Source of the DNA: Aliiroseovarius salicola | Lineage (GTDB): Bacteria; Pseudomonadota; Alphaproteobacteria; Rhodobacterales; Rhodobacteraceae | Assembly: GCF_027891095.1 (NCBI RefSeq) | Contig: NZ_JAQIIO010000003.1 | Span: 1 to 64,000, forward strand | DNA: 64,000 nt | Direction: 5' to 3' | Part shown: piece after piece, positions 12,019-34,382 of the stretch | How the letters are laid out: every line of letters starts with the position of its first letter | Numbering within the stretch: position 1 is the stretch's first letter | Position numbers and translations under genes: made by a program | Notes under the pieces: model-generated | What the model saw: the letters and a program-made list of their open reading frames with translations, nothing else | Told to the model about the DNA's origin: nothing | Databases searched by the model: none

Positions 12019-13437
12019 TTATTGTGTAATAATTTCCGGGCCCATGAACGTATTCGGGAGGAACGTTGATAAGAACGGAACATACGTGACGATAATCAGG
12101 AACACGAACAGCACGGCGAGGAAGGGAAGGGCTGCACGCACGACGCTCATCATCGGCATACCAGCGACACCAGAGGTCACGAAGAGGTTCAATCCAACCG
12201 GAGGTGTGATCATCCCGATCTCCATGTTGACCACCATGATGATACCCAGATGGATCGGGTCGATGCCCAGTTCGATCGCAATTGGGAACACCAGTGGAGC
12301 GACAATGACCAGCAAGCCTGATGGCTCCATGAACTGACCACCAATCAGCAGGATGATGTTGACAACGATCAGGAACATCACCGGACCAAAGCCAGCAGAC
12401 AGCATGGCATTGGCGATATGTTGCGGGATTTGTTCGTCTGTCAGCACGTGTTTCAGGATCAAGGCGTTCGCGATGACGAACAACAATGTCACGGTCAGTT
12501 TGCCAGCATCAAACAGCGTTCTCTGCGTGTCAGGGTGAATGATGGCTGTGAGCAAAGTCCAGGGCTTTTGCCGCAGAGGTGTTGAATCTCCAAGTGGCGC
12601 ATCTTCGACCATCGCCGCGGAAGACAGGCTTTTGGCGCGTGGTGCTGCCAATGGGCCCATGTCCTTGTAAATGAAGGTCGCGATGAAGAAGGCATAGACA
12701 GCTGCGACAGCTGCCGCTTCGGTTGGTGTGAAGATACCGCCATAAATACCGCCAAGGATGATGACGATCAGGAACAAACCCCAACCAGCTTCGCGACCGG
12801 CTGCAAGCACTTCGCCCCAGCCTTTCCATTCGCCTTTTGGCAGGTTTTTCACCTTGGCTATGACATAGATCGTCACCATCAACATCACACCTGCCAATAG
12901 CCCAGGAATAACGCCGGCAAGGAACATCCGGCCTACGGAAACTTCTACTGAGGCCGCGTAAACAACCATCACGATGGATGGCGGGATCAGAATACCCAAG
13001 GTGCCAGCATTACAGATAACGCCTGCGGCAAATTCCTTAGAATAGCCGACCTGACGCATGCCCGCGATGACAATGGTACCAATTGCGACGACGGTCGCCG
13101 GGCTTGAACCTGACAGCGCAGCAAAGAGCATACAGGCAAACACCCCGGCAATCGCCAGACCGCCGGGCAAGTGGCCAACGCAAGCAATCGAAAACCGGAT
13201 GATCCGCCGCGCCACTCCGCCGGTTGTCATGAAGGACGACGCCAGAATGAAGAATGGTATTGCGAGCAGGGTAAAGTGGCCCTCAAAGGCAGCGAAAAGC
13301 GTTTGCGCAACAGAGGCCAGAGAGCTGTCTGAGAACCACAGAAGAAATAGGACCGACGACATGCCGAGTGACACGGCAATCGGAACACCGATCATCAGAA
13401 AACCGATGACCATTGCAAAGAGAAGGACGACTTCCAT
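12019..13437 (-). CDS. dctM: TRAP transporter large permease (DctM family)
   Basis: The 472-residue 4TMS/12TMS membrane subunit of a tripartite ATP-independent periplasmic transporter, driven by an ion gradient. It shows the DctM hallmarks: the early FFILASSFMTTGGVARRI block, SGSSPATVVAIGTI, GILIPPSIVMVVYA, and the C-terminal MITPPVGLNLFVTSGVAG. A cytoplasmic loop of ~50 residues in the middle (ARAKSLSSAAMVEDAPLGDS) is longer than usual. It starts at the dctQ stop (ATAATG-type junction) and is last in the operon, before a strong terminator. Confidence 0.95.
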   Translation of the reverse strand: MEVVLLFAMVIGFLMIGVPIAVSLGMSSVLFLLWFSDSSLASVAQTLFAAFEGHFTLLAIPFFILASSFMTTGGVARRIIRFSIACVGHLPGGLAIAGVFACMLFAALSGSSPATVVAIGTIVIAGMRQVGYSKEFAAGVICNAGTLGILIPPSIVMVVYAASVEVSVGRMFLAGVIPGLLAGVMLMVTIYVIAKVKNLPKGEWKGWGEVLAAGREAGWGLFLIVIILGGIYGGIFTPTEAAAVAAVYAFFIATFIYKDMGPLAAPRAKSLSSAAMVEDAPLGDSTPLRQKPWTLLTAIIHPDTQRTLFDAGKLTVTLLFVIANALILKHVLTDEQIPQHIANAMLSAGFGPVMFLIVVNIILLIGGQFMEPSGLLVIVAPLVFPIAIELGIDPIHLGIIMVVNMEIGMITPPVGLNLFVTSGVAGMPMMSVVRAALPFLAVLFVFLIIVTYVPFLSTFLPNTFMGPEIITQ

Positions 13438-14102
13438 TATTTTGCCTCCACATTCTTAGCTTCAAGCTCGGCGAGCTCGTCTTCGACTTCATGGCTGGCC
13501 ACAAGGCGATCCATCGTGCCGTTCAAAATGGCAATTGTAGATTGCACAAAACGCACGAGGATCAGCGCGCCGGACAGGGGCAGAACGAAATAGGGCAGGA
13601 AGCGCGGGATCTTTTCATAGGCCTCGCCTTCGTTAAAAACGTCTTTCATCCAAGCCAGAACACCCGGCATTGGTATGTCGTTGGTTTCGTACCAGCCCTT
13701 AGCGCGGAATTCGTCCTCAAAACCAAGCGGGAACCAACGGCCCTCGGTGGCAGGAAGGTTTGCGAAATTTGCCCAGTAGTCCCAGGAACCCTTCATCATT
13801 AGGAATGCAAAGGCGAGGCACACCGCGACGGCAACAAGCGCCATAGCGCGGCGGGCTTTGTCTTCGAGCATGTTTACGACGAGGTCCACGCCCAGATGGG
13901 TGCCTTTTTTGACCGCATAGGCCGCACCAAGCAGCACCAGCCAAGCGAATAAAAAGACCGTCATTTCGAGGGCCCAAAGTATGTTTGAGTCAAAAGCGTA
14001 GCGGGCCACTACATTCGCGAAGGTCAAGGCTGTCATCAGTCCGAGGATCACCGCGATCAGTTTTTCTTCTATTTGGTCCACAAGGGACGCACTTGATGTC
14101 AT
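13437..14102 (-). CDS. dctQ: TRAP transporter small permease (DctQ family)
   Basis: The 221-residue small membrane subunit, with four predicted helices. The N-terminal pair contains the typical WALEMTVFLFAWLVLLGAAYAVKKGTH-type block (split here around residues 45-70). Between helices 3 and 4 there is a ~55-residue periplasmic-side insertion rich in aromatic residues, as in the subset of DctQ proteins near 220 residues. It lies 71 nt after dctP and abuts dctM. Confidence 0.93.
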   Translation of the reverse strand: MTSSASLVDQIEEKLIAVILGLMTALTFANVVARYAFDSNILWALEMTVFLFAWLVLLGAAYAVKKGTHLGVDLVVNMLEDKARRAMALVAVAVCLAFAFLMMKGSWDYWANFANLPATEGRWFPLGFEDEFRAKGWYETNDIPMPGVLAWMKDVFNEGEAYEKIPRFLPYFVLPLSGALILVRFVQSTIAILNGTMDRLVASHEVEDELAELEAKNVEAK

Positions 14103-14173
14103 TGATCTGATCCTCCCTGAACGAGATCATGTATTGGTTGGGCACATGATGCGCGCCCAACCAAGGGTTTGGA

Positions 14174-15175
14174 TTAGAAACCAGCGTTGATCTGGACTGC
14201 GGCTTCGATCGCGTCTTGACCGATATCGCTTGAGAACTGTTCCCAAACAGGCTGCATCGCAGCAACCCAAGTTTGGCGCTCTTCGTCTGTCAACGTGCGG
14301 ATTTCCCCACCCGCATCGATGATCGCCTGACGGTTCTTCTGGTTTACCGCGTAGGATTCTGAATTCCGGGTGTTGGTGACTTCGTTCAGAATAGTCAGGA
14401 ATTGATCGCGCACGTCCGCATCCAGACGGTCCAGCCAATCAACAGATGTCACAACCAAGTAGTCGATGATACCGTGGTTTGTCTCTGTGATACCGTCTTG
14501 TACTTCAAAGAACTTCTTGCCGTAGATATTGGACCAAACGTTTTCCTGACCATCCACAACACCCTGTTGCAGCGCGCCGTAAACTTCTGAGAACGCCATT
14601 TTCTGCGGGCTGCCGCCAATGGCTTCCATCTGAGCAACCAGAACGTCCGAAGACATAACGCGGAACTTCAGGCCCTCTGCGTCCGCAGGTGTCACCAATG
14701 GAATATTGGCAGACATTTGCTTCATTCCGTTGTGCCAGAACGTCAGACCTTGAAGTCCGCGACGCTGCATGGAGTCCAGAAGTTCTTGACCCGCGTCGGA
14801 TGTCTGGAACGCGTCAACTGCTTCGATGTTCTTAAACAGGAACGGCAGGTCGAAGATGCGGAATTTCTTGGTGAATTTCTCGAATTTGGACAGGGATGGC
14901 GCAGCTAGGTGAATGTCACCTTGCAGCAGCGCTTCCAGAACCTTGTCGTCATTGTATAGGGTTGAGTTCGGGAAAACCTCCATGCAGGCTTTGCCGTTCA
15001 TCTCGTCGTTGATGCGCTGTTCCAGCAAAGATGCGGCAATGCCTTTTGGGTGTTTGTCTGTGTTGGTGACGTGGCTGAATTTAATAACAGTTTCGCCGGG
15101 GTCGCAGGCTGCAAACGCAGCACCCGCACTGACGGACATCGCTACTGTCAAAGCGGTGAGTTTCGTGAACTTCAT
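14174..15175 (-). CDS. dctP: TRAP transporter solute-binding protein (DctP family)
   Basis: A 333-residue periplasmic binding protein with a clear signal peptide (MKFTKLTALTVAMSVSAGAAFA). Family landmarks include GLKFRVMSSDV, with the arginine that normally salt-bridges a substrate carboxylate, and GVVDGQENVWSNIYGKKF. The ligand is therefore probably an organic acid. The gene is divergent from the hydrolase-leuCD-lysR operon, which suggests the transporter brings in the substrate of that pathway. Confidence 0.95.
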   Translation of the reverse strand: MKFTKLTALTVAMSVSAGAAFAACDPGETVIKFSHVTNTDKHPKGIAASLLEQRINDEMNGKACMEVFPNSTLYNDDKVLEALLQGDIHLAAPSLSKFEKFTKKFRIFDLPFLFKNIEAVDAFQTSDAGQELLDSMQRRGLQGLTFWHNGMKQMSANIPLVTPADAEGLKFRVMSSDVLVAQMEAIGGSPQKMAFSEVYGALQQGVVDGQENVWSNIYGKKFFEVQDGITETNHGIIDYLVVTSVDWLDRLDADVRDQFLTILNEVTNTRNSESYAVNQKNRQAIIDAGGEIRTLTDEERQTWVAAMQPVWEQFSSDIGQDAIEAAVQINAGF

Positions 15176-20289: not shown

Positions 20290-22749
20290 ATGTCTAATAA
20301 GCTTCCCACACACGTGCAAACCGTGATCATCGGGGGTGGATCCATTGGCTGCAACACCGCCTACCATCTGACCAAGCTCGGCATGACGGACGTTGTTGTC
20401 CTGGAACGCGACCAATTGACATCAGGCACCACTTGGCACGCGGCGGGCCTGATCGTGGCCGGTCTTCTGCAATCGGAAGCAGAATGCGAGATCTATACCC
20501 ATGGGCGAGACCTATATGCCAATCTGGAGCAGGAAACCGGCGTTTCGACAGGGTTTCGTGACGTTGGCTATCTACAGATTGCCAGCAACGAGGAACGTGT
20601 GCACGAAATGCGCCGGCTTGCGCCATTTATGCGCCGACACGGCATAAACATCTTTGAAATCTCCCCCAAGGAAACGGCGGATCTGTTCCCCATCGGAGAC
20701 CTCAGCGATGTGCTGGCGGGTTTCTATATACCCGAGGACGGGCGCGCCAATCCGGTTGATGTCACCATGTCATTGGCCAAGGGTGCAAAAATGGGAGGCG
20801 CAAAGATTTTTGAGGGGGTCACGGTCTCTGAAATCATGGCGAAGAACGGCACCGCGACGGGGGTGCGCACGGCCGACGGTCAAACCATCACGGCGGAAAA
20901 CGTGGTAATCTGCGGAGGAATGTGGTCTCGCCAACTGGGGGCCAAGGCAGGGATCAATCTGCCGCTACAAGCTGCCGAGCATTATTATCTGATCACTGAA
21001 AACATTGATGGCCTAAGCCGCGACCTACCGGTGCTGGAAGATCCATCGACCTACACTTATTACCGCGAAGAGGTTGGGGGGCTTATGCTTGGTTTGTTCG
21101 AGCCGGGGGCGGCACCATGGAAACTGGACGGTATCCCCGACAACTTTGCATTTGGTGAAATTGAGCCCGACTGGGACCGAGTCGGGCCTCATCTGGAAAA
21201 GGCTTACTCGCGTGTGCCTGATGCCCTGAACGTGGGTGTGCGCAAACTGTTCTGCGGTCCGGAAAGCTTCACCCCGGACCTTGCGCCACTGGTGGGGGAA
21301 ACTCCGGAGTTACGAAATTGCTTTGTGGCCTGCGGCATGAATTCGCTTGGCATCCTGAATGGTGCCGGCACCGGGAAAGTGCTCGCAGAATGGATCGTCA
21401 GCGGTCATCCGCAGATCGATGTCACCGGCATCAACGTGAACAGGTTCACGCGTCATGAAGCCACCAAGGCATACCGCCGCGACCGCGGGCCGGAGTTGTT
21501 GGGCAAGATGTTTGGCCAGCATTTCCACAATGAAAGCTATCACACTGCCCGCGATCTAAAGCGTTCTGTCCTGCACGATCGACTTGCCGCGAACGGCGCT
21601 TACTTCACAGAGGGGCATGGATGGGAAATGCCCGACTGGTTCGCGCCCACCCCAGAGCAGGCAAAGATAGAAGAATACAGTTGGTCCCGTCAAAACTGGT
21701 TTGACTGGCATGCTGAAGAACACCGTGCCGCCCGTGAGGATGTGATCATCATGGACATGTCGGCCATGTCCAAGTTCCAAGTCGAAGGCCCGGATGCACT
21801 GGCGCTGATGAGCCGCCTGTCTTGCAATGATGTTGATGTTGAGCCGGGGCGGCTGGTTTACACCGCTTGGGTTAACGAGAAAGGTGGGTTTGAGGCCGAC
21901 CTGACCGTCACCCGACTGGCTGAGGACCGCTTCATGGTTGTCGTGGGCGAAAACAGCCATGGTCATACCCTGATGCGGATGAAACGCCATATTCAAGCGG
22001 GTGAGGTTGTTGTGACAACCGATCTCACGCCCGCGATCACGCAGATCAATATCCATGGTCCGAAAGCACGCATGTTGATGGAAAACGTGACCTCGGCAGA
22101 CATGTCGAACGAAGCGTTTCCTTTCATGACGTGGCAGGACATTGATGTCGGATACTGGGTTGTCAAAGCCTTCCGGGTCACGTTCGTCGGCGAGCTTGGC
22201 TGGGAGCTTCAGGTGCCATCTTACGCCGCTGTTCAGGTCTATGATCTGCTGAAGAAAGCGGGTCAGGAATTCGGCTTGCGCGATGCGGGGATGCAGACCC
22301 TCAATTCGTTGCGTCTGGAGAAGGCTTATCGTGACTTCGGGTTGGACGTCGACAACACCGACAACCCGATGGAGGCGGGGCTTGGCTTTGCTGTGAAGCT
22401 CGACAAACCTGGCGGCTTCATCGGCCGCGATGCTCTTGCTGCGATCAAGGCGGCCGGCGTGCCCAAAACCCGGATGCTGCAATTCCTGCTACAGGCCCCT
22501 GAACCGCTGCTCTACGGCAATGAGTGCATTTACCTGAACGGTATCGAGGTCGGACACCTGCAAGTCGGTGGTTATGGCCACAGTCTTGGTGGCGCTGTGG
22601 GCATCGGTTTTACCGAGTTGGAGGAGCCACTGACGGCTTCCATAGTTAACGAAGGAGCATGGGAGGTCGAAGTGGCCGGAGAACGCGTTAAGGCCACTGC
22701 ATCTCTGAAGCCCTTGTTCGATCCGGGAATGCTGAAAGTAAAATCTTGA
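20290..22749 (+). CDS. FAD-dependent dimethylglycine/sarcosine-dehydrogenase-family protein with GcvT domain
   Basis: An 819-residue two-domain flavoprotein that should demethylate an N-methylated amine and pass the C1 unit to tetrahydrofolate. Residues 1-400 are a DAO-type FAD domain (IIGGGSIGCNTAYHLTKLG; GTTWHAAG, where His50 aligns with the covalent-FAD histidine of dimethylglycine dehydrogenase). Residues ~440-819 are the folate-binding GcvT-like part (GELGWELQVP; GFIGRDALAAIKAAG; VGHLQVGGYGHSLGGAVG). Rhodobacterales carry many paralogues with different methylamine substrates, so dimethylglycine is only one option. It is divergent from a BetI-like repressor. Confidence 0.88.
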   Translation: MSNKLPTHVQTVIIGGGSIGCNTAYHLTKLGMTDVVVLERDQLTSGTTWHAAGLIVAGLLQSEAECEIYTHGRDLYANLEQETGVSTGFRDVGYLQIASNEERVHEMRRLAPFMRRHGINIFEISPKETADLFPIGDLSDVLAGFYIPEDGRANPVDVTMSLAKGAKMGGAKIFEGVTVSEIMAKNGTATGVRTADGQTITAENVVICGGMWSRQLGAKAGINLPLQAAEHYYLITENIDGLSRDLPVLEDPSTYTYYREEVGGLMLGLFEPGAAPWKLDGIPDNFAFGEIEPDWDRVGPHLEKAYSRVPDALNVGVRKLFCGPESFTPDLAPLVGETPELRNCFVACGMNSLGILNGAGTGKVLAEWIVSGHPQIDVTGINVNRFTRHEATKAYRRDRGPELLGKMFGQHFHNESYHTARDLKRSVLHDRLAANGAYFTEGHGWEMPDWFAPTPEQAKIEEYSWSRQNWFDWHAEEHRAAREDVIIMDMSAMSKFQVEGPDALALMSRLSCNDVDVEPGRLVYTAWVNEKGGFEADLTVTRLAEDRFMVVVGENSHGHTLMRMKRHIQAGEVVVTTDLTPAITQINIHGPKARMLMENVTSADMSNEAFPFMTWQDIDVGYWVVKAFRVTFVGELGWELQVPSYAAVQVYDLLKKAGQEFGLRDAGMQTLNSLRLEKAYRDFGLDVDNTDNPMEAGLGFAVKLDKPGGFIGRDALAAIKAAGVPKTRMLQFLLQAPEPLLYGNECIYLNGIEVGHLQVGGYGHSLGGAVGIGFTELEEPLTASIVNEGAWEVEVAGERVKATASLKPLFDPGMLKVKS

Positions 22750-23227: not shown

Positions 23228-24022
23228 TTGGCACTGATTGGACGAATACTTGCTGCGATAGCGGCGATGAATATGGTTTCTCTTGCCGTATTCGTCGGGT
23301 TGGCAACACTTCAATATGAATCAATCTTGTCAAACCTCACGCGCGAAAGGCTGGTCGTTCTGGCGGAGTCTGTTCGCGGACCGTTTCAGGCTGTTGCCGA
23401 TTTAGGTGTCCCGATCAGCACCGTTCGCAACGCAGACGCCGTCTTGGAACGTGCCCGGCTGAGCGACGAGGCGATTTCCGCCATCCTGGTGTTCTCTTCG
23501 GATGGGAATGTCGTTAGATCCACGGCCCTGAACGATCAAACCATGGAAACCGGAAAAGGATTTGCGGCGGCTCTAACAGCGGGCAAATCAGGGATTTGGC
23601 ATGTTGAAACGCCTGACAATTTTCTCGTTGGCGCCAACATTGCTGGTGTGACCGGAGAATATCTGGGCAGCGTTGTGATCGCATACTCCAGTTACGAGGC
23701 TGCGACCCAAGTTCAGGCCATGGAGGCGAGATTGGTATTGTTCGCCATAGCCGTCTTTGCGTGTTCGGTTTTCGTTGTGTGGATTATTCTGCGCATCGTG
23801 TTGGCAGAGCATTTGCGAATTTTTGAGGGGATCCTTTCTACATTTGACAGATTTGAACGAAAGTTCTGGCGTGGCAAAGGTGCAAGCGAAACAGCACATG
23901 CTGATGTGGATGGGTTGGGTTTTGACACGGCTGATTTCCGGGAATTAATTGAGGAGTCAGAAGAACAATACCGACGCGCCAGACGCCGTGAACCTGCGGG
24001 AAGTGCCGAGGTGAACGAATGA
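23228..24022 (+). CDS. Membrane-anchored periplasmic sensor-domain protein of unknown function
   Basis: A 264-residue protein: helix 1 (~residues 5-28), a periplasmic domain of ~135 residues, helix 2 (~168-192) and a ~70-residue charged cytoplasmic tail. The periplasmic block LAESVRGPFQAVADLGVPIS and the later AILVFSSDGNVVRST resemble a Cache-like fold. The same block (IGETVRGRFERALELGVPLE) occurs at the N terminus of the next protein, so the two are paralogous sensors. There is no kinase, cyclase or methyl-accepting domain. The start is TTG at 23228, with GGGGAT eight bases upstream; an ATG at 23267 is an alternative. The stop overlaps the next start (ATGA). Confidence 0.72.
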   Translation: MALIGRILAAIAAMNMVSLAVFVGLATLQYESILSNLTRERLVVLAESVRGPFQAVADLGVPISTVRNADAVLERARLSDEAISAILVFSSDGNVVRSTALNDQTMETGKGFAAALTAGKSGIWHVETPDNFLVGANIAGVTGEYLGSVVIAYSSYEAATQVQAMEARLVLFAIAVFACSVFVVWIILRIVLAEHLRIFEGILSTFDRFERKFWRGKGASETAHADVDGLGFDTADFRELIEESEEQYRRARRREPAGSAEVNE

Positions 24023-25989
24023 CCTCATCAATTTTCCAGCCTGGCCGGGTCGCCGCCCGCCGCGTTATCCTTTGGGTCGGTTTGGTCGTGACAATTTCAT
24101 TGCTGATAATGATGTACGGCACACTCCGAGCATTTGATGACGCAATCCAGCCGGAAATGGAAAAACGTTCCCGCCTCATCGGAGAAACCGTCCGCGGTCG
24201 ATTTGAACGCGCTCTTGAATTGGGGGTGCCGCTGGAATCTGTGGCTGGGGCGGGAAAATTTTTCGATGCCATGCTTGCTGATTTTGCCGATGTGCAAAGT
24301 ATTACGCTCCTGTCCAAAAATGGCGATGTCATCATATCGGCCAGCAACACATCTGAACCCAAAGGCACTCTTACTGCTCGGGTTGTACAAGTTGGTAAGG
24401 AAGAGAGCCCCCATTTTTCCCTGCCGATCCTCAGTCGCAACACCCTGGTAGGGGAGATCAAGATCGCCTTTGACCCGGCCTTCGTTCGGACGCGGCTTCA
24501 GGATGTACTGCTTGACGTATTTGTCGTGGCGCTTGTTTCTATTCTGGTCGCATTTGAGCTGGTTATCTTTGTAATGGCCGGAGCGCTGGCCAAACCTCTG
24601 GATCGAATTTTTTCTCTGCTTCGCCTGCAAAGCACCGGGGTGTTCAATCACATCATTCGGGCGCGTGATGCGGGCAACCTGCGACGGGTGGCACGGCGTA
24701 TCTCAGACAGGGCAATTGATCTCTCGGAACGCACCCAGTCGGCGGGTAAGTTGTTGCGAATGCCACAAGCATATTTTGTCGACGTTCGTTTGGCCCTGTT
24801 TGTATTTTCACTGGCGACAGAAATCAGCGGTGCCTTCTTACCTCTTTATGCAAGAGATGCCGGTGGTCCTGAATGGGTGTCTGGGGATTTTGCGGCCATC
24901 GCCCCATTGATTGCCTATCTGGTCGCGATTGCGGCAGTTGCGCCGTTTGGTGGATGGATCACCCGATTGGTTAGTCCCCGGTCGCTGTTCTTGATGTGCA
25001 TACCCTTTACTGCAGCAGCGATGGCTGCCGTCGGATTGGGCTTATCTGCACTGTGGATCGCCGTGTGGCATGGTGCGATGGCGTTGGCCTATGCGGCTGC
25101 AACCATCGCCTGCCAGGAATACGCCATCAGAACCGCCCCGGAAGGCGAAGATGCACAGGCAATAGGAAGTTACCTTTTTGTGATCATGGGGGGCGCGTTT
25201 TGTGGCACATCTTTTGGTGGTGTGCTCGCGGACCGAATTGGACCCAATGGAACATTCTTCTTTGGTGCGTTTCTTGTCATCATCGCAGGGGTGTTGGGGG
25301 CCGTCACCATTTCTGGAAAGGTTGCCACAAGAAGTGAACCGGCTTCTGATCAGACAAGAAACTCGCGTTACAGCGGGTTGGCGATTCTTCGCAATGTCAG
25401 ATTTGTCGTTCTGTTGCTCTGTGTTGGCGCCACGATGAATGTCGGAATGTCGGTGTTCATCTGGTATCTAACGCCGATGATACTGGAGGCAGGTGGCGCA
25501 AGGATAGCGGACATTGGCCGGGTGATAATGTTGTTCTACCTCGCGCCAATATTGTTTGGCCCTCTGGTTGCCAAACTCGCAGATGGCAAAGTCGGATATA
25601 CACCAATGTTGCTCGGCGGCGTTTTGCTATCCGGCGTGGCTCTGGCATCCCTTGCAATCTGGTCAGGTTTTTGGCCAATGGTTGTGGTGGTTGCCGCGTT
25701 TGGGATTGGTTTCACCATGTGCGACGCCACCCAATATGCACAGACAATCAAGATTGCCGAAGCCAGCCAGATTTCCGGTGCCCGGGCTGTCAGCCTAGGG
25801 GCCCTGAGGTTGGGCAACCGTCTGGCTGCGATTGTTGGGCTTCTTGCAAGCGCGTATCTGGTCGAACAATTTGACTACCTCAACCTGGCTGTGGCGACTG
25901 GTGGCTTTATGTGTGCCGGTGCCGTTGTGATGATGGTGGCAGGGACAGCACGCGCTTTACTTCGACCCGGACGCGTGGGAAAATCCTGA
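24019..25989 (+). CDS. Sensor-domain/MFS transporter fusion
   Basis: A 656-residue protein with two parts. Residues ~1-250 repeat the plan of the preceding gene: helix (~17-37), periplasmic Cache-like domain (VQSITLLSKNGDVIISAS), helix (~165-190) and a HAMP-like linker ending near SERTQSAGKLLRMPQ. Residues ~255-650 are a 12-helix MFS permease with motif A-like loop GGVLADRIGPNG and symmetric halves. A ligand-sensing domain joined to an MFS transporter is unusual, and suggests either gated transport or a sensor whose output is the permease fold. It is translationally coupled to the sensor gene, with a binding-protein gene 41 nt downstream. Substrate unknown. Confidence 0.8.
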   Translation: MTSSIFQPGRVAARRVILWVGLVVTISLLIMMYGTLRAFDDAIQPEMEKRSRLIGETVRGRFERALELGVPLESVAGAGKFFDAMLADFADVQSITLLSKNGDVIISASNTSEPKGTLTARVVQVGKEESPHFSLPILSRNTLVGEIKIAFDPAFVRTRLQDVLLDVFVVALVSILVAFELVIFVMAGALAKPLDRIFSLLRLQSTGVFNHIIRARDAGNLRRVARRISDRAIDLSERTQSAGKLLRMPQAYFVDVRLALFVFSLATEISGAFLPLYARDAGGPEWVSGDFAAIAPLIAYLVAIAAVAPFGGWITRLVSPRSLFLMCIPFTAAAMAAVGLGLSALWIAVWHGAMALAYAAATIACQEYAIRTAPEGEDAQAIGSYLFVIMGGAFCGTSFGGVLADRIGPNGTFFFGAFLVIIAGVLGAVTISGKVATRSEPASDQTRNSRYSGLAILRNVRFVVLLLCVGATMNVGMSVFIWYLTPMILEAGGARIADIGRVIMLFYLAPILFGPLVAKLADGKVGYTPMLLGGVLLSGVALASLAIWSGFWPMVVVVAAFGIGFTMCDATQYAQTIKIAEASQISGARAVSLGALRLGNRLAAIVGLLASAYLVEQFDYLNLAVATGGFMCAGAVVMMVAGTARALLRPGRVGKS

Positions 25990-26030
25990 CCCATGGCCAT
26001 TCCGGTTAGAAATTTGGATGGATTCAAAAA

Positions 26031-27035
26031 ATGAAGAACATCGTGAAACTGGGACTAAGTGCAGTTTGGTGCACGCTGATATTCGGATCTCCAGCAGATG
26101 CGGGTCCAAAAAAAATCTATGCAGTGACATGGGAGGGCGAATGTGAACATTCCTGCAAGGGATTCATTGAAACCATTGAGAACAGCGGGTTTGATGCCGA
26201 AGTCATCCTGCGTCTGTCGCATCAGGACAAGTCCAAATTCCCCGGCTTTATAGAGGAATCAAGACAGTTGGGGGCCGATCTGGTTGCGACTTATGGAACA
26301 AGCGTGACGCTGGGATTGCTCGGCAGAAAATCTGACGATGGGAATCCGCAATTCATCAACGGTGTTCCAGGCGTGTTCTGGTATGTGGCTGATCCGTTCG
26401 GAACGGGCATTGCTGAAAGTTTCGATGGAAGCGGCCGTGCTCATATCGCGGGAACCTTCAATCGCGTTCCGGAAGCAGTGAATATCCGCACCATCCGCAG
26501 CATCAAGCCGGACTTTCAACATCTGGGTATTCTTTACAACGGCAATGAACGCAACTCGCTGATCAAGGTCGAAGAACATCGCGTATTGTCGCAAGAACTG
26601 GGATATGACTTCACCGCTATAGAGCTTGACCCAGGCAATGCCGGGGTACCGGACCCAGCCTTGATTTCAACCCGGATGCAGGAACTTTCCGACGCAGGTG
26701 TAGATTTCATATATTTGGGATCAAGCTCGTATCTGCGCATACACGCCGAAGTATTTACCGAAGCGGCTGTTGAAAAAGGGTTGCCAATCCTTAGCCCGTA
26801 TGAGGAATTGGTGAGAGAAAATAAGGCCTTGGTGTCAATTGCAGCCCGCGCCTATGATGTTGGACGGGAAGCAGCAGAGCAAACGCTTAAAATCCTTAGG
26901 GATGGTGATACCCCCGGTGACCTGCCCATCGCGCGGATCACTGATTTCGCTTACGTCGTCAATATGGAAGTGGCGCGCAAACTTAAGATTTTCCCACCGG
27001 TTGAAATCTTGCAAGTGGCTGAAACCATCAAGTGA
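26031..27035 (+). CDS. Orphan ABC-type substrate-binding protein (COG2984-like)
   Basis: A 334-residue periplasmic binding protein with signal peptide MKNIVKLGLSAVWCTLIFG...ADA. The fold landmarks (ADLVATYGTSVTLGLLG; FQHLGILYNGNERNS; VDFIYLGSSSYL; RAYDVGREAAEQTLKILRDG) fit the uncharacterised/TrpX-type ABC substrate-binding family. Members normally pair with a permease and an ATPase; neither is present here. Instead it follows two paralogous membrane sensors, one fused to an MFS permease, and may hand ligand to their periplasmic domains. The ribosome site is weak. Confidence 0.82.
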   Translation: MKNIVKLGLSAVWCTLIFGSPADAGPKKIYAVTWEGECEHSCKGFIETIENSGFDAEVILRLSHQDKSKFPGFIEESRQLGADLVATYGTSVTLGLLGRKSDDGNPQFINGVPGVFWYVADPFGTGIAESFDGSGRAHIAGTFNRVPEAVNIRTIRSIKPDFQHLGILYNGNERNSLIKVEEHRVLSQELGYDFTAIELDPGNAGVPDPALISTRMQELSDAGVDFIYLGSSSYLRIHAEVFTEAAVEKGLPILSPYEELVRENKALVSIAARAYDVGREAAEQTLKILRDGDTPGDLPIARITDFAYVVNMEVARKLKIFPPVEILQVAETIK

Positions 27036-27699: not shown

Positions 27700-29436
27700 T
27701 CAATTGTTCAGCAGCTCTAGCACAGCGTCTCGTTCCGACAGGACCAACAGCAAGGCAAGGTCGCCGGGTTCCAGCCTCTCCAATATCATCGAAGCCGCCT
27801 TAGAGGGTGATGTGGCCCGCAGGATTTGTGTCGCGTCTTTGCCGTGATCAGCGACGGCCTTCTCAATCAGATCCGGGATCTCGCCCAGTTCCCGGCCTCT
27901 CAAATAACCCTCTAGTTCGGCGGTGACGATGACATCCGGGTTGAAGTTCAACGCGGTTGCCGTCACATCCCGAATGTCCTGATCCGACCGGTCCCCGGCA
28001 TGGCTGAGCATGATGAACCGGCGTTTGGCAGGCAGGCCCGACAGGGCCTCGCATACCGCGGCAATCGAATGCGGGTTATGTGCGAAATCCACAAAGACAC
28101 GGGCGTCCTTGTAGCTGAATTCGTTGCAGCGCCCCGGATTGTCCTTGGCGTCAGGCTTGAAGTCCGACAGCCCCTTGCGGATGGCATCTATCGGAATCCC
28201 CATCGCGCGGGCTAGGCAGAGCGCGGCAAGCGCGTTGCTGATATTATAGCGTGCGGCCCCCCCCATCGTCAGGGGAACGTCATGCACGTTTGCCACGACT
28301 TCGTCTGAGCTGCCGTCAAAGAACAAAATGTCCTCGCCCTCGAGAAACGCACAGCAGTTTCCGTTCTCTCTTGCCTGTTGGATCTGCGGGGCCTGGGGAT
28401 CCAGCGAAAGCCACCAGATATTGGCCGTGGTTTCTTTTGCCTCGTCGAGGACAAAAGGATCATCGGCGTTCAGGGCAAGAATTCCCGCGTCAGACAATGT
28501 GCGATGCACAGCGAATTTGGCCTGCGCCAGTTCTGGCACAGTGTTGACGCCATATTGCCCCAGATGGTCATTGGCTACATTGGTCACCGTTGCGGCCGTG
28601 GCCGCGCGGGTGGGCAGGCCGCGGCGCAGGATCCCGCCGCGCGCCACTTCAAGGCAGGCCACCTCAAGCCGTGTGTCACGCAAAAGCATCCTTGCCCCGC
28701 CCGGTCCGGAATAATCTCCGCGATCCAGAATATCGTCGCCAACGCGCACAAATTCGGTTGAGGTCAGCCCCGCCACCTTGCCCGAGGCACGCACAATCGC
28801 TTCTAACAGGCGGGTGGTCGTGGTTTTGCCATTGGTGCCGGTTATGAAGGCGATGGGAATGTCGTGCAATGCGTCCCAGTTGACCTCGTCCGGGGCTGGA
28901 AGGGCATCGATGGGCCATGTTTGGCTGCCGGTACCGTGACCGATTGAAACCTCGTCATCGTCGCACAGAATATCAATCCCATGCGCCCCTGCCGCCTGAA
29001 TGAGAGCGATCAGGGTCGGGTTGGCCTCCTCAGTCATCACGCCCTTCAAGTCCGAAATCATGGTGTCGAAGTCACCGGGTGTGGTGTCGAGCAACTCTGC
29101 TGCGCAGAAATGCCAAGCTGTCTGGGCTGCGAAAATCGCGGAGTAAAGCTGATCCATCGGTGCCGAGATGGCGAGGTTGACCCCGCCGGAAAAGACGCGG
29201 AAGGTCAGCCCCTCGTCCTGCCACCCCAATGCGTCGAGCACTTTGCGGGCGTGGCGCTTCCACAGATCCACGACTTGAGGCGCTGGGACATCTTCGAAAA
29301 AGACATCCATCACCGCGCCCGGTCGGTTCCACAACATGCCCGGCCCGGTCAGGCGCCGGGCGTCGTCCACGCGAATTTGATCCGCCTCGGCGCTGGTGAT
29401 TGTCAGCGCGGTTTCAAGATATTCGATCCTGTCCAT
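27700..29436 (-). CDS. Mur-ligase-family protein paired with cyanophycin synthetase
   Basis: A 578-residue Mur ligase. The P-loop GTNGKTTTTR lies near residue 200, then the family blocks EVARGGILRRGL, NVANDHLGQYGVNTV and DFAHNPHSIAAV, all close to the Mur half of CphA (GTNGKTTTSR, DYAHNPAALGAM). The first ~190 residues are not an ATP-grasp domain and are unrecognised. It cannot do both halves of the CphA reaction, so it may add one residue to cyanophycin or a related peptide. It lies 9 nt after cphA, with GAGAGG before the ATG. It resembles the second, shorter cyanophycin-synthetase-like genes found beside cphA in other bacteria. Confidence 0.8.
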   Translation of the reverse strand: MDRIEYLETALTITSAEADQIRVDDARRLTGPGMLWNRPGAVMDVFFEDVPAPQVVDLWKRHARKVLDALGWQDEGLTFRVFSGGVNLAISAPMDQLYSAIFAAQTAWHFCAAELLDTTPGDFDTMISDLKGVMTEEANPTLIALIQAAGAHGIDILCDDDEVSIGHGTGSQTWPIDALPAPDEVNWDALHDIPIAFITGTNGKTTTTRLLEAIVRASGKVAGLTSTEFVRVGDDILDRGDYSGPGGARMLLRDTRLEVACLEVARGGILRRGLPTRAATAATVTNVANDHLGQYGVNTVPELAQAKFAVHRTLSDAGILALNADDPFVLDEAKETTANIWWLSLDPQAPQIQQARENGNCCAFLEGEDILFFDGSSDEVVANVHDVPLTMGGAARYNISNALAALCLARAMGIPIDAIRKGLSDFKPDAKDNPGRCNEFSYKDARVFVDFAHNPHSIAAVCEALSGLPAKRRFIMLSHAGDRSDQDIRDVTATALNFNPDVIVTAELEGYLRGRELGEIPDLIEKAVADHGKDATQILRATSPSKAASMILERLEPGDLALLLVLSERDAVLELLNN

Positions 29437-29445
29437 CCCGGCCTC

Positions 29446-32250
29446 TCAGTCGGCGTCTTCGCTGACGTCACGGGCTAGACGAACGCCGCGTTCGTCCCGG
29501 ATCAGGGTCTGGTCACTGTCAAACAGGTCTTCAAATTCAGAATCTTCTTCGGGAGATGCGGCGGCAACTGGTGCGGCCTCGTCCGTCTCTTCCCCTGAAT
29601 TGAAGTGGATGATTTGTTTCCAGCACCGAGTTGTGTTGTCGCCAAAGATCACCAGAAGATCACCGGGGGCGGCCATGGCCAGTGCCGCGTTCACAGCCTC
29701 AGTTTCATCAGGGATGACACTGATCGAACCCTCCGTCACTCCATGGGCGATCAAACCCGCCTGAAGCATCTTCGGAACCTCGTCATGGCCCCGACCGCGC
29801 CGGCGGTCATCAGCCTTGCAGATATAGTGGTCGTAGTGGTTGGCAAGAACAGATGCAGCGTCGGCAATATCCTCGTCTCGCCGATCCCCGGGCATCGAGA
29901 GGACACAGATCTTGCGCCCCTCCACATCCATCCGATCTGACATCGCACTCATCGCGCCAAGGGCGGCGGGGTTATGGGCATAGTCGAGGATCACCTTGAA
30001 CGGATGTTCGTCAAATACGTTCATGCGGCCGGGCGCCTGGAAAAAGCTGGTATCGAAGGTGCGCAGACCATGACGGATATTGTCCAGATCAACGCCGAAG
30101 CTATAGGCCATTGCGGTGGCGAACATGGCGTTTTGCACGTTGAAGATCGCCTTGCCTTCCAACGCCGCTGGGATCAGGTGCGACCAGAGAACCGGGATAT
30201 GCATCCCGTTATCATAGATGGTCAGCATGTCACCATTCATGCCCTGTTCAAGCACAATCGCCTTGCCGCCAGCCTTGATATGTTCCTTAACGAGATTGTT
30301 GTTCGGGTTGGTCGTCACATAGAAAATCGTCTGAGCATTGGCATAATCCGCCATTTTCAGACAGTTGATATCATCGGCATTCAGAACCGCCGTGCCCGTG
30401 GCGCTTTCGACAACCACGCGTTTGACAACGGCCAGCTCCTCAACCGTGTTGATGCCGCCCAATCCCAGATGGTCTGCCGAGACATTCAGACAGGCCGCCA
30501 CATCAGAACGTTGATACCCAAGGCCCGAGCGTACCAGCCCGCCACGTGCGGTTTCCATGACCGCGAAATCCACCAGTGGGTCACGCAGGACGATCTGGGC
30601 GGATTTGGGTCCGGTCATGTCCCCTTTCACGCTCAGTTTGCCATCCACATAGACCCCGTCGGTTGAGGTCAGGCCGACAATGTTGCCACTGGCCTTCATG
30701 ATATGGGACAGCATACGTGACGTGGTGGTTTTACCGTTGGTGCCGGTGATCGCCGCAATTGGAATGCGGCGAGGTTCCTCGACGGGGAACAGCATGTCGA
30801 TCACATTGCCAGCGACGTCGCGCGGCTCGCCCTCGGACGGGGCGACGTGCATGCGAAAACCGGGGGCCGCGTTCACCTCGACAATGGCGCCACCGATTTC
30901 CTTGTATGACTTGGTGATGTCGTCAATCAGGAAATCAACGCCCCCCACATCAAGGCCAACGGCCATGATGGCGCGTTCTGCCATGTCGCGGTTGTCAGGA
31001 TGCACCACATCGGTCAGATCGATGGCGGTGCCGCCGGTCGAGAGGTTCGCGGTTGAGCGCAAATAGAAGACCTCGCCATCAGGCAGCACGGTCTCGGCGG
31101 TGTGACCTGCACCGTCCAGCAGGCGTTTGGCCTGAGTGTCGATTTCCAGCATGGTCAGCACTTTTTCATGACCGATGCCCCGACGGGGGTCTTCGTTCAC
31201 GATATCGACCAGTTCGGAAATCGAGTGTTTGCCGTCACCTACAACATGGCCGGGCACCCGCTTGGCCACGGCGACCAGCTTGTTGTCGACCACCAGCATG
31301 CGGTGATCAAACCCGGTGATGAAGCTTTCGACCAGAATGGCACGGCTGCGGGAATGTTCCTTGGCCTCGGCAAAACCGGCCTCGACCTCTTCAGCTGAAT
31401 TCAGGTTGATCGAGACGCCGCGCCCGTGATTGGCGTCCAGCGGCTTGACCACAACAGGGTGGCCGATCCGTTCGGCAGCGCGCACAGCTTCTCGAGCACT
31501 ATAGACCATACGCTGTTGCGGCACAGGCAGGCCCAGATCGTTCAAGAGGTTGTGGGTGTCTTCCTTGTCACAAGAAATCTCGACCGCGATATGTTTGGTT
31601 TCCGAGGTGATCGTGGCCTGAATGCGCTTTTGGTATTTGCCATGCCCAAACTGCACAAGCGATCCTTCGTTGAGGCGGATCCATGGGATGTCACGTTCTT
31701 CGGCGGCCTTGACCAGTGAACCGGTTGACGGGCCGAATTCCTTTCTCTGGGCGCGCAGAACAAAACTGCGCAATTCATCTTCCCAGTCAAAGTCATCGTC
31801 GAAATCATAATCAGTCTGGTCTTTCAGGCTCTGCGGCAGCAGATGCATCAGAAGACGCATCGCCAGCTTGCCCGCCGCAAGACCCACATCGCGCTGACGA
31901 TAGGCGTAGACCATATTGTACTGGCCCGGAACGCCAGTGCTGCGGGTCCGACCAAAGGTGACATCGGTGCCGGCGACATTCTGCACTTCGATGGCGCAAT
32001 GTTCCAGAACGTGACCCATCCAGGTGCCTTCATCCTCGCGCAGGCGGCGAATGAACCCGCCTGGTTCGCGGTATGAACACCCGTGTTCAGCAAGACCGGG
32101 AAGGGCCTCAATCAATGCATCAATAAACTCGGCACCAATTTTCGCCGATGGCCATTCTTCCAGAACACCTAGGTCGATGATATGTCGAATGACTGGAAAA
32201 CTGGCCCAAACATTCGGACCGACAAAGACATTGGTTGAAATTATTTTCAT
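29446..32250 (-). CDS. cphA: Cyanophycin synthetase CphA
   Basis: CphA polymerises aspartate and arginine into multi-L-arginyl-poly-L-aspartate, a nitrogen store, using ATP. The 934-residue protein has the N-terminal domain (MGHVLEHCAIEVQNVAGTDV), an ATP-grasp domain (~residues 190-480; VVVKPLDANHGRGVSINL; GGAIVEVNAAPGFRMHV) and a Mur-ligase domain (~490-880; GTNGKTTTSRML; NVSADHLGLGGINTV; DYAHNPAALGAM). The last ~55 residues are an acidic tail beyond the usual family end. The start has GGGGAG four bases upstream. It is third in the iadA-cphB-cphA-Mur operon. Confidence 0.95.
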   Translation of the reverse strand: MKIISTNVFVGPNVWASFPVIRHIIDLGVLEEWPSAKIGAEFIDALIEALPGLAEHGCSYREPGGFIRRLREDEGTWMGHVLEHCAIEVQNVAGTDVTFGRTRSTGVPGQYNMVYAYRQRDVGLAAGKLAMRLLMHLLPQSLKDQTDYDFDDDFDWEDELRSFVLRAQRKEFGPSTGSLVKAAEERDIPWIRLNEGSLVQFGHGKYQKRIQATITSETKHIAVEISCDKEDTHNLLNDLGLPVPQQRMVYSAREAVRAAERIGHPVVVKPLDANHGRGVSINLNSAEEVEAGFAEAKEHSRSRAILVESFITGFDHRMLVVDNKLVAVAKRVPGHVVGDGKHSISELVDIVNEDPRRGIGHEKVLTMLEIDTQAKRLLDGAGHTAETVLPDGEVFYLRSTANLSTGGTAIDLTDVVHPDNRDMAERAIMAVGLDVGGVDFLIDDITKSYKEIGGAIVEVNAAPGFRMHVAPSEGEPRDVAGNVIDMLFPVEEPRRIPIAAITGTNGKTTTSRMLSHIMKASGNIVGLTSTDGVYVDGKLSVKGDMTGPKSAQIVLRDPLVDFAVMETARGGLVRSGLGYQRSDVAACLNVSADHLGLGGINTVEELAVVKRVVVESATGTAVLNADDINCLKMADYANAQTIFYVTTNPNNNLVKEHIKAGGKAIVLEQGMNGDMLTIYDNGMHIPVLWSHLIPAALEGKAIFNVQNAMFATAMAYSFGVDLDNIRHGLRTFDTSFFQAPGRMNVFDEHPFKVILDYAHNPAALGAMSAMSDRMDVEGRKICVLSMPGDRRDEDIADAASVLANHYDHYICKADDRRRGRGHDEVPKMLQAGLIAHGVTEGSISVIPDETEAVNAALAMAAPGDLLVIFGDNTTRCWKQIIHFNSGEETDEAAPVAAASPEEDSEFEDLFDSDQTLIRDERGVRLARDVSEDAD

Positions 32251-32270
32251 GAGGCTCCCCGTTTATCTGC

Positions 32271-33161
32271 TTATTGTTCCCCCCCGCTGGCGGCCTCGTC
32301 CCCGGACAAGTCCGGTAAGGTGCAGAACGCCAGATGCTCATCCGGCGGAAAAGCCTGGCGAGCGGTCAGATCATAACGGCATCCTTCGCCCAGAACGTCA
32401 AGCCGAAGCCCGAGAAGGCTGAGTGCTTCACCGGCGCGCGCGTCCCACATTGAGGAATGTGTCAGGTGGCTGGCATCCACCACAGACACCGTTCCGCTGC
32501 CGACCACTTCAAGGATATTGTCAGGCCCGATAAACGCGGCGGTGTCTTCGTCAATGCCCAGACCGATCAAAAAAGGATTGAAGGATGAGGCAGTTAGCAG
32601 GCGGCCCAAGCGATTGCGTTGGGTGAAGTGCTGATCGATGATGACGGCGTTGGTCAATCCCATACCCGGTGCCAGCGTGATGTTACCCTCGGCAGGGGCG
32701 GTGTTGTTGCTGCCACCGGCAACCATATGCTCTGACATGATCGAAGCACCGGCAGAGGTGCCCGCAACCGGCACACCCGCGGCATTTTGGCGGCGAATTT
32801 TCTGTGCAACCAGCGTTCCACCCAGAATCGCGGACAGGCGCAGTTGGTTCCCGCCGGTCATGAAGATCCCGGTTGCGCGATCCAGCATCTCGGCATAATC
32901 GGGGTTGTCGCAATCCGCCCGGTTGGTGATCGGCAGAAACTCGACCTTGCCTGCCCCAAGTTCCGAGAAGATGCGGTTATAATCAGGTCCTGTTTCCTCA
33001 AGCTGTGAGGCCGTGGGGATCACCACAATATCGGCATCCTCTCCGCCTGACAGCTCCACAAATTTGCGATGGATCTGCATTTCCTTCACGCGATCTTCGC
33101 CACCCCCGATTGGGATGATGAAGCCGCGTGGCGTATTGTCGTCAACTGGTGCAGGGCACAT
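32271..33161 (-). CDS. cphB: Cyanophycinase CphB
   Basis: CphB is a serine-type exopeptidase that cuts cyanophycin into beta-Asp-Arg dipeptides. The 296-residue protein has IGGGEDR near the N terminus, FMTGGNQLRL, and the nucleophile elbow GTSAGASIMSEHM with the catalytic serine, followed by GLGIDEDTAAFIG. The ~30-residue C-terminal extension is ordinary for bacterial forms. It lies 54 nt after iadA and 20 nt before cphA, so storage and mobilisation are co-transcribed. Confidence 0.94.
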   Translation of the reverse strand: MCPAPVDDNTPRGFIIPIGGGEDRVKEMQIHRKFVELSGGEDADIVVIPTASQLEETGPDYNRIFSELGAGKVEFLPITNRADCDNPDYAEMLDRATGIFMTGGNQLRLSAILGGTLVAQKIRRQNAAGVPVAGTSAGASIMSEHMVAGGSNNTAPAEGNITLAPGMGLTNAVIIDQHFTQRNRLGRLLTASSFNPFLIGLGIDEDTAAFIGPDNILEVVGSGTVSVVDASHLTHSSMWDARAGEALSLLGLRLDVLGEGCRYDLTARQAFPPDEHLAFCTLPDLSGDEAASGGEQ

Positions 33162-33215: not shown

Positions 33216-34382
33216 TTAACCTTGTTCATACATGCCGCGCCGGGCCACTTGGCCTTCGCGGACATGCCATTCCCCCCCAGCCATCACATGCCGTACAGCA
33301 AGGTTTTCGTCAAGAACCACCAGATCGGCATCCATGCCCACCTTAAGACGGCCTTTGCGATGCAGTTTCAAAAGATCGGCAACATTCGACGTGAATGGGG
33401 CGAGTGCTTCGGACAACGGCACACCGGCTCGCACAAGTTCTGCCAGCGTTTCTGGCAGAATATCGCAAAGCCCCACACCAAAGCGGGTCAGGTTACCGTC
33501 GTGATCAAAGGCCGGCAGGCAGCCGCCCCCATCGGAACTGATGGTGAACCGGTCGACCTTGTCCCCGGCGTCGCGAAATTGCAGATAAGCGTCTGCGGCT
33601 GATATTCCGGGGTCCACATGTTCACACGGAAAGGCCGTGGCGTCGACGTAGCAGCCATGCCGCGCCAATGCGACAGCCTGTTCGAACAGCGGCTTATTAC
33701 GATTGATATGGGTCGGGTTAAAGACGCGGGCCGGAATTTCACTGGTTGCGATTGCCTGTTCAAGCATCGAAAGCCCGCGTTCGCCATCCCCCATATGGCA
33801 ATGCACGATCCCGGCCTTGCCGGTCATCAGCCCCGCAACATGTGCCTCGCTGGCAATGCGAAGAAACTCATCTAGGGTTGGTTGGCTCGATCTGTGATCG
33901 CTGATCGCCAGCTCCCCCACACCGATGACGGGATCGAGAAACACAATGTCACCACGGGCTGAACCCGTCAGGGTGGTCAGGGGCACATGGTAACCGCCCG
34001 TGTGACACCAGGCCGAAAGCCCTTCATCACGCAGCCCATAGGCCTGTTGCACCAAGGTCTGGGTGTTGCGGGTCAGGTCATCTGTCCCCAACACGCCAAC
34101 AACCGAGGTCACCCCGGCCTTGGTAAAGGACGACAAGCCCATTGGCGGCACGCGACTGGCCGGTCCGGTCTCGCCGCCGCCGCCAGTGATATGCGCATGG
34201 CCATCAATCAACCCAGGAACGACAGGAGCGCCTTCGGCATCAAAAACTTCAGTCTCAAACAGGTCAGGCAGATCAGGCATCGTGCTGCCAAGATAAACGA
34301 TACGTTCACCCGCAATGACAATGTGGCCGATGCCCAACGGGTCCGGCGCATGTATGAGAGCGTTCTTGATCAGTTTCAGCAT
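33216..34382 (-). CDS. iadA: Isoaspartyl dipeptidase IadA
   Basis: A 388-residue amidohydrolase that splits beta-aspartyl dipeptides. Beside cphB it should finish cyanophycin breakdown, giving free Asp and Arg. Metal and substrate motifs: GLIDGHAHITGGGGETGPAS, CHTGGYHVP, ISDHRSSQPT, VHCHMGDGERG, FNPTHINRN and ISSDGGG. The position of the carboxylated lysine of E. coli IadA (VIGVKCAISDHRS) reads VIGVGELAISDHRS, so a glutamate probably bridges the metals. It is the promoter-proximal gene of the cyanophycin operon. Confidence 0.93.
   Translation of the reverse strand: MLKLIKNALIHAPDPLGIGHIVIAGERIVYLGSTMPDLPDLFETEVFDAEGAPVVPGLIDGHAHITGGGGETGPASRVPPMGLSSFTKAGVTSVVGVLGTDDLTRNTQTLVQQAYGLRDEGLSAWCHTGGYHVPLTTLTGSARGDIVFLDPVIGVGELAISDHRSSQPTLDEFLRIASEAHVAGLMTGKAGIVHCHMGDGERGLSMLEQAIATSEIPARVFNPTHINRNKPLFEQAVALARHGCYVDATAFPCEHVDPGISAADAYLQFRDAGDKVDRFTISSDGGGCLPAFDHDGNLTRFGVGLCDILPETLAELVRAGVPLSEALAPFTSNVADLLKLHRKGRLKVGMDADLVVLDENLAVRHVMAGGEWHVREGQVARRGMYEQG

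Follow-up and report, generated by a model that had tools for sequence, protein, structure and literature searches.

Paired Cache/PAS-like sensors, a major facilitator superfamily protein and a PF04392 binding protein in a conserved three-gene module: a candidate binding-protein-linked receptor

What does a periplasmic binding protein do beside two sensor-like membrane proteins, one of which continues into a permease of the major facilitator superfamily (MFS)? This question is raised by three plus-strand genes (the trio) at positions 23228–27035 of a 64,000-nucleotide stretch of Aliiroseovarius salicola DNA (assembly GCF_027891095.1, contig NZ_JAQIIO010000003.1, positions 1–64,000, forward strand), which we call the window. 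Sequence comparison indicates that the trio is a real module, widely conserved in two phyla and built of parts from known families, whose function we infer; with about even confidence, we take the three genes to form a single unit of the envelope, namely a receptor that is linked to a binding protein and has the MFS protein among its outputs. The trio comprises the following features, given with the evidence for each (open reading frame, ORF; transmembrane, TM):

23228–24022, plus strand: gene 1, sensor-1 (ORF of 264 aa; AlphaFold; homology to the gene 2 sensor)
24019–24022, plus strand: stop/start overlap ATGA, in which the ATG of gene 2 overlaps the TGA of gene 1
24019–25989, plus strand: gene 2, sensor-2 fused to an MFS permease (ORF of 656 aa; Pfam MFS_1; AlphaFold)
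24046–24633, plus strand: sensor-2 part of gene 2, about residues 10–205, TM helix, Cache/PAS-like domain, TM helix (profile match to sensor-1; secondary structure of the model)
24634–24777, plus strand: HAMP-like segment or linker of gene 2, about residues 206–253 (low-confidence helix in the model)
24778–25962, plus strand: MFS domain of gene 2, about residues 254–648 (Pfam, AlphaFold, fold search)
26031–27035, plus strand: gene 3, PF04392 periplasmic binding protein (ORF of 334 aa; Pfam)

The two adjacent ORFs and the binding-protein ORF lie where the initial annotation, made from the letters alone, had placed them, with the charged tail on gene 1 and the MFS domain on gene 2 that it described. 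The ATG/TGA overlap makes translational coupling of genes 1 and 2 plausible. Genes were called at all loci as the longest ORF, so that gene overlaps are often due to overlong starts; the TTG start of gene 1 is the ORF program's choice and is uncertain.

Gene 1 consists of an N-terminal TM helix, a periplasmic Cache/PAS-like domain (about residues 29–165), a second TM helix and a charged cytoplasmic tail; a Pfam scan returned nothing above cut-off, and hence no recognised output domain. Its AlphaFold model (mean predicted local distance difference test, pLDDT, 83.8), computed like that of gene 2 as a single chain from alignments of the window proteins and rows from related loci, shows a mixed alpha/beta domain set between two long helices, the first of them N-terminal, and its best matches in Foldseek and VIA were the extracytoplasmic sensor domains of WalK (VIA Z 14.9, root-mean-square deviation 2.2, 129 aligned), KinD, DcuS and CitA; folds absent from these lists carry no weight as evidence. 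Judged by the model, the gene 1 sensor is an extracytoplasmic Cache/PAS receptor fold; Pfam gave no Cache match for gene 1 or gene 2, and the Cache assignment rests on the model. The blocks noticed earlier as common to the two sensors correspond to residues 47–64 of gene 1 and 56–73 of gene 2, and the homology proposed from them was borne out both by BLASTP (33% over 101 aa, E 9e-7) and by profile–profile comparison (hhalign, 34 sensor-1 rows against 33 sensor-MFS rows; probability 97.7, E 2.4e-12, 249 columns). Across the genome of A. salicola, the sensor-1 profile matched the two window sensors only.

Gene 3 scores 66 bits against ABC_sub_bind (PF04392; curated cut-off 25.9), is presumably COG2984-like, and by eye has a signal-peptide-like N-terminus. 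Its top NCBIfam model is the tryptophan-binding TrpX, far below the cut-off of that model, and its solved relatives are 3lft, 6hni and 3lkv, of which the nearest, 3lft and 6hni, bind amino acids. It is the sole PF04392 match in its own genome (E 0.001), and 40 of 42 binding proteins tested score as PF04392. A CxxxC pair considered as a metal site is present in only 22–23 of 42 rows and was not adopted. As the initial annotation had stated, this protein follows the sensor pair with no adjoining gene for a permease or ATPase of the ATP-binding cassette (ABC) type, as judged by eye. A cognate PF04392-type permease elsewhere in the genome, which would have spoken against the annotation's proposal, was likewise not found with the one query used (best E 5e-4; the ATPase was not searched genome-wide). 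The same query gave 2.7e-88 (G040) and 4.6e-52 (G194) in family genomes with the ABC version, and no good match in another five genomes that carry the trio (1.5e-9 at best, and nothing at all in one of them).

The arrangement recurs in many genomes. A search with gene 2 (E 0.001) in 295 genomes from the window's family gave matches in 30, about half of them through plain MFS proteins, and in all 14 family loci not cut downstream (L033–L045, L047) the binding-protein gene directly follows the sensor-MFS gene. A scan of named genomes with close alignment yielded 39 loci, in Vibrio, Photobacterium, Marinomonas, Oceanospirillum, Marinobacterium, Terasakiella, many roseobacters, a Hyphomicrobiales strain and Massilia, and in metagenome-assembled genomes, one of a Sulfuricellaceae and one of a Desulfobacterales among them. 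Further copies, in Azospirillum and Nitratidesulfovibrio vulgaris, came from plasmid records. Profile surveys at E 1e-20 matched 25 of 398 phylum genomes and 53 of 385 class genomes, with plain MFS proteins at the weak end; the sensor, binding-protein and MFS profiles used in the surveys were built partly from the same loci as those counted.

Sensor-MFS candidates (127 with at least 150 bits and 450 aa) were grouped into 87 clusters at 95% identity, of which six are cut by contig ends and 81 are assessable; three loci with broken frames (L073, L099, L105) were counted or dropped as they stood. A binding-protein gene lies directly downstream (same strand, at most 100 bases past the stop, overlaps included) in 70 of the 81, and upstream, slightly farther away or on the opposite strand in the remaining 11, the farthest at 2725 bases. 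These clusters were picked by their MFS part; among plain-MFS control loci, which extend only 1.5 kb past the match, none of 27 carries a binding-protein gene, and a 28th candidate that does (L026) is itself a tandem-sensor MFS and was excluded. The conservation of gene order on which the initial annotation had made its proposal depend thus held. A separate sensor-1 gene lies directly upstream in 52 of 61 single-sensor clusters; the nine exceptions are L039, L041 and L043, which have an ATPase/sensor-1 fusion gene in that place (118, 126 and 100 bits with the sensor profile), the cut locus L047, and five in which the same criterion shows no upstream sensor-1 (L044, L045, the second copy of L104, L183 and L190). 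Two TM segments precede the MFS domain in 59 of 67 single-sensor clusters. Among 20 clusters labelled tandem by script, 18 have four such segments, L180 has five and L177 two, the label being wrong for L177; both sensor units are therefore on the MFS chain in at least 18 clusters. At L104 (5107–10962), one binding-protein gene is flanked by two sensor-MFS genes, the first with a very divergent MFS copy.

The reverse survey, with gene 3 against the same 295 genomes, found 25 places in 23 genomes. Of the 17 at E 1e-34 or better, 15 adjoin a sensor-MFS gene; of the other two, one is a second copy in G201, about 5 kb away from the trio there, and one is a copy in G036 that lacks its N-terminus. 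This truncated copy (L224, 8486–9340) retains only the last 285 residues of the protein, at 87% identity; genes 1 and 2 have no match in its 19 kb stretch, and it is perhaps the remnant of a lost trio. The eight weak places (E 3e-11 to 5e-7) are all in genomes with no sensor-MFS match in the family scan with gene 2; three of them adjoin Cache-domain signalling genes (a hybrid kinase, a GGDEF-EAL protein and a cyclase), and two were barely examined (L225, one neighbour scanned; L230, none).

How far does the trio resemble systems already described? The periplasmic part of LuxQ is PAS/Cache-like. In LuxP–LuxQ, TorT–TorS and XylFII–LytS, a membrane receptor is acted on at its ligand-binding domain by a periplasmic binding protein (PMC6321045). 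The trio shares with these systems the pairing of a binding protein with a membrane receptor, and has an extracytoplasmic Cache/PAS domain (by model) encoded beside a binding-protein gene; their output, however, is a sensor kinase, whereas the trio has an MFS protein on the receptor and a second, separate sensor subunit. Pfam found no kinase or other catalytic output domain on genes 1 and 2 of the window, while sensor-1 of L039–L041 and L043 carries HATPase_c_2. Tripartite ATP-independent periplasmic (TRAP) transporters and tripartite tricarboxylate transporters (TTT) likewise combine a binding protein with a secondary-transporter membrane protein, but the trio has an MFS protein instead of DctM or TctA, a PF04392 binding protein and two built-in receptor-type sensor domains; its Pfam matches include no TRAP family (DctQ/DctM with a DctP-type protein) and no Tct family (TctA/TctB with TctC). 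In the text available to us, a review of multicomponent transporters covers ABC and TRAP systems and does not name an MFS protein with a binding protein (PMC8276074). PF04392-type ABC importers (TrpX-like) share the binding-protein family with the trio, which differs in that neither a BPD_transp_2-type permease nor an ABC ATPase was seen adjoining it. In the SLC5/STAC histidine kinases CbrA and CrbS, a transporter domain is joined to a signalling module (PMC9100948); the carrier of the trio is instead an MFS protein, its sensor is extracytoplasmic, its fusion holds no kinase, and Pfam found none of the SLC5 carrier, STAC and kinase domains in it. Because the features tested for TRAP, TTT, ABC and sensor-kinase membership were not found, we call the module categorically new. 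No description of it was found in the literature, which, with preprints and most subscription papers outside the coverage, is weak evidence of absence; the annotated records examined give these genes no names beyond MFS transporter and ABC transporter substrate binding protein.

We read the trio as a LuxP/LuxQ-like receptor with MFS output in preference to a TRAP-like importer. Judging from its family, the PF04392 protein would bind a small ligand in the periplasm. Sensor-1 and sensor-2 would associate by way of both TM helices and Cache/PAS domains, as their homology, the natural fusions and their correlated divergence suggest, and the pair so formed would be the docking site of the binding protein, in the manner of LuxP with LuxQ or TorT with TorS. 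The second TM helix and the HAMP-like linker could then relay the signal to the fused MFS protein and alter its transport or conformation, while sensor-1 may relay it to the cytoplasm, where some relatives have an RsbW-like ATPase domain and a nearby SpoIIE gene; in the window, the MFS protein and the charged sensor-1 tail would be the only local outputs left. A binding-protein-linked Cache receptor acting on an MFS protein, and in some relatives on partner-switching proteins, appears to be the simplest reading of the sequences, because it covers the sensor fold, the paired sensors, the fusion, the binding-protein partner and the signalling neighbours. More tentatively, and somewhat less probable than the unit as such, the binding protein might switch a paired Cache/PAS receptor that directly gates the MFS protein (a receptor-gated secondary transporter, and a new class of envelope machine), the same module being wired to partner switching and, in clusters of the type VI secretion system (T6SS), serving as the chemical input.

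Three kinds of neighbourhood recur in relatives: SpoIIE phosphatase and HATPase_c_2 genes, T6SS genes, and carboxylate-amine ligase genes, which are taken up below. HATPase_c_2 (RsbW-like) domains are N-terminal to sensor-1 on the same chain at four loci, by Pfam in L040 and L041 and by marker match in L039 and L043:

L040, 6958–10389: HATPase_c_2/sensor-1 fusion, continuing into the sensor-MFS (1144 aa)
L041, 7453–8661: HATPase_c_2/sensor-1 fusion
L039, 12644–13939: HATPase_c_2/sensor-1 fusion
L043, 6457–8055: HATPase_c_2/sensor-1 fusion

In L042, the domain is encoded by the gene preceding sensor-1, and SpoIIE genes lie downstream of the binding-protein gene in the HATPase_c_2 loci. The second kind is that of T6SS genes. 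Most roseobacter loci have the order VgrG, DUF6931, trio, TssA, Hcp, TssB, TssC, TssE-like, TssF; the loci of Vibrio, Photobacterium and Marinomonas begin with the trio, after which come VgrG, DUF6931, TssA, Hcp, TssB and TssC, and in Oceanospirillum and Marinobacterium the trio is divergent from the T6SS cluster. The trio was seen in or beside T6SS genes at L036, L037, L065, L067–L081, L084–L099 and L188, with a DUF6931 gene accompanying VgrG in all T6SS-linked loci except the short contigs L084 and L094. On a Vibrio crassostreae plasmid typed as conjugative (L234; NZ_AP025479.1, 58000–98000), an annotated T6SS cluster includes genes for an ATP-grasp protein, a tandem-sensor MFS and a PF04392-type protein, besides a further binding-protein gene and an FHA gene.

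Among the 81 clusters, 29 have T6SS genes, 21 have SpoIIE and one has both; T6SS is over-represented in these counts because the named-genome scan was queried with three T6SS-linked sequences. In a tree built from 83 MFS domains, with long branches flagged in several rows including that of the window, the T6SS label requires four changes and the SpoIIE label 14. The window's clade has six rows, none with T6SS or SpoIIE in the stretches at hand (several of them short), and meets, at a fork supported at 98/99, a group of 30 rows in which all but two of the 28 T6SS rows (26) are found. A T6SS of A. salicola itself was rejected as a partner, the VipB/TssC family having no match in that genome. With SpoIIE, HATPase_c_2, T6SS clusters, kinases and cyclases among them, the genes around the trio fit signalling better than the uptake of nutrients; the neighbour family tally covers 60 of 81 listed neighbour ORFs, from five loci. 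What stands of the initial annotation's interpretation is a real three-part system without ABC parts, none of its three refuting conditions having been borne out (for the ABC parts, with the one permease query); that the binding protein loads the sensors, and these gate an MFS transporter, would be a possible mode of action.

Several results weigh against the receptor reading. Three of the eight weak PF04392 places adjoin BPD_transp_2 permeases, two of them also with a confirmed ABC ATPase, so that the binding-protein family by itself implies no signalling. The correlated divergence that speaks for sensor pairing (pairwise distances of sensor-1 and sensor-2, r 0.949 over 50 loci; other pairs 0.82–0.85) partly reflects shared ancestry. 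Pfam recognised HAMP in just 2 of 16 sensor-MFS proteins, window gene 2 not among them. The MFS domain is the best conserved part family-wide (mean identity 0.43, against 0.40 for the binding protein and 0.24–0.28 for the sensors), and a working transporter therefore fits as well. No signalling output gene was seen beside the window trio, and the SpoIIE and HATPase_c_2 matches over cut-off in the same genome are on other contigs (L059, L060, L061), with no shown link. Neither T6SS nor SpoIIE is present in the stretch in 32 of the 81 clusters; among the 62 clusters whose flanks reach 5 kb or more in each direction, the number is 20.

One of these unlinked proteins, a SpoIIE-HATPase protein (L059, 7106–8977), has by eye a TM-sensor-TM-HAMP front and is a possible signalling partner; we do not claim it as one, because the sensor-1 profile matches only the two window sensors in the genome. 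A contact between the conserved Glu180 and the MFS domain was considered and dropped, a similar Glu being visible by eye in the same SpoIIE protein.

The strong conservation of the MFS domain also bears on the alternative closest to the initial annotation, in which the ligand passes from the binding protein to the MFS protein by way of the sensors, which serve as dock and gate, signalling being secondary; this would be a third kind of binding-protein-dependent secondary transporter. We consider it unlikely. The binding protein and the MFS protein occur together in all 81 assessable clusters (which were chosen by the MFS part), and the single query for a cognate ABC permease had no good match in the genome. 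Gene 2 is an MFS protein by profile (MFS_1, 72 bits) and by fold (pLDDT 80.0; predicted TM-score 0.74), and its fold neighbours include FLVCR1, solved with choline. The closest, however, are NorA, VMAT and MdfA (TM-score to target mostly 0.74–0.83 across the four), which we take to be antiporters. To our knowledge, none of these three has an N-terminal sensor or a binding protein. Import, moreover, requires neither receptor-type sensor domains nor fused ATPase domains, and the recurring neighbours (T6SS, SpoIIE, kinases and cyclases, as far as neighbours were classified) also tell against it. The window copy itself also lacks several conserved MFS positions.

That copy is intact but unusual. 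Gene 2 departs at 26 of 56 MFS columns that are at least 85% conserved in 57 other rows (mean departure of those rows, 3.9), and at none of eight conserved sensor columns. The positions lost include G319, R351 and E600 (G319S and R351H among the changes), with conserved motif-A and TM4 arginine positions among them, and the motif-A region lacks the usual D-R-x-G. Similar drift affects L033 and L034 (27 columns each) and L035 (20), and to a lesser degree L169 (8). Gene 3 departs as well, at the near-invariant Arg35 (R in 38 of 42 rows, E in the window); with this change and the MFS drift, the ligand and the MFS activity may differ in the window's clade. The loss of MFS columns beside unchanged sensor columns, together with the signalling genes in many neighbourhoods, is what would be expected if the MFS protein did not transport and served as a membrane scaffold or transceptor, the trio only reporting its ligand to cytoplasmic partners. 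We regard this pure receptor as doubtful: no partner is known in the genome of A. salicola, few sensor columns are conserved enough for the comparison, and, with the MFS domain best conserved family-wide, it would hold at most for the window's subclade.

Ligase genes beside some trios bring in a third alternative, in which an amide- or peptide-like compound is the product of a ligase, leaves the cell through the MFS protein, and is monitored outside by the binding protein and sensors. A Ddl-like ATP-grasp gene adjoins the tandem-sensor MFS in one clade (L160–L163, L178–L180, L182, partial L116), a GCS2-like ligase gene adjoins the MFS at L149/L158, L150, L151, L153, L159 and L189, and ATP-grasp genes are also found in Azospirillum (L066), in L170 and in the T6SS cluster of the V. 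crassostreae plasmid; the NorA/MdfA-like fold would suit export. Beyond the Ddl clade and the GCS2 loci, however, the ligase queries matched only L066 and L170 among the sensor-MFS loci, and the cyanophycin-type ligase genes of the window are convergent with the trio and have no match in the stretches at hand of L033–L035. We hold such a self-made signal circuit to be improbable. That the genes are accidental neighbours or an annotation artefact is scarcely credible, no supporting point having been found and the order being conserved in two phyla, with fusions and a bimodal reverse survey.

Other window genes near the trio were recorded as follows:

27700–33161, minus strand: genes for a cyanophycin-synthetase-like protein, a shorter Mur ligase and a peptidase S51 (cyanophycinase-like), convergent with the trio
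33216–34382: amidohydrolase-like gene, next to these (by eye)
20290–22749: FAD oxidoreductase–GCV_T fusion of dimethylglycine/sarcosine dehydrogenase type, located 0.5 kb before gene 1; a divergent TetR-like gene accompanies it (TetR-like gene by eye)
12019–15175, minus strand: TRAP transporter operon encoding both membrane subunits, large and small, as well as a binding protein (by eye)

A guess at the ligand from the dimethylglycine-dehydrogenase-like and cyanophycin neighbours was rejected, because the nearest relatives (L033–L035) have no match to those genes in the stretches at hand.

If the receptor reading is true, an external ligand receptor would control a transporter within the same polypeptide, with a binding protein as co-receptor, and binding proteins, Cache receptors and MFS carriers, which are fields usually treated apart, would be joined in one system. 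The trio would then be a candidate chemical sensor for many marine T6SS clusters and for that of one Vibrio plasmid typed as conjugative, and the environmental cue that those clusters answer would become testable.

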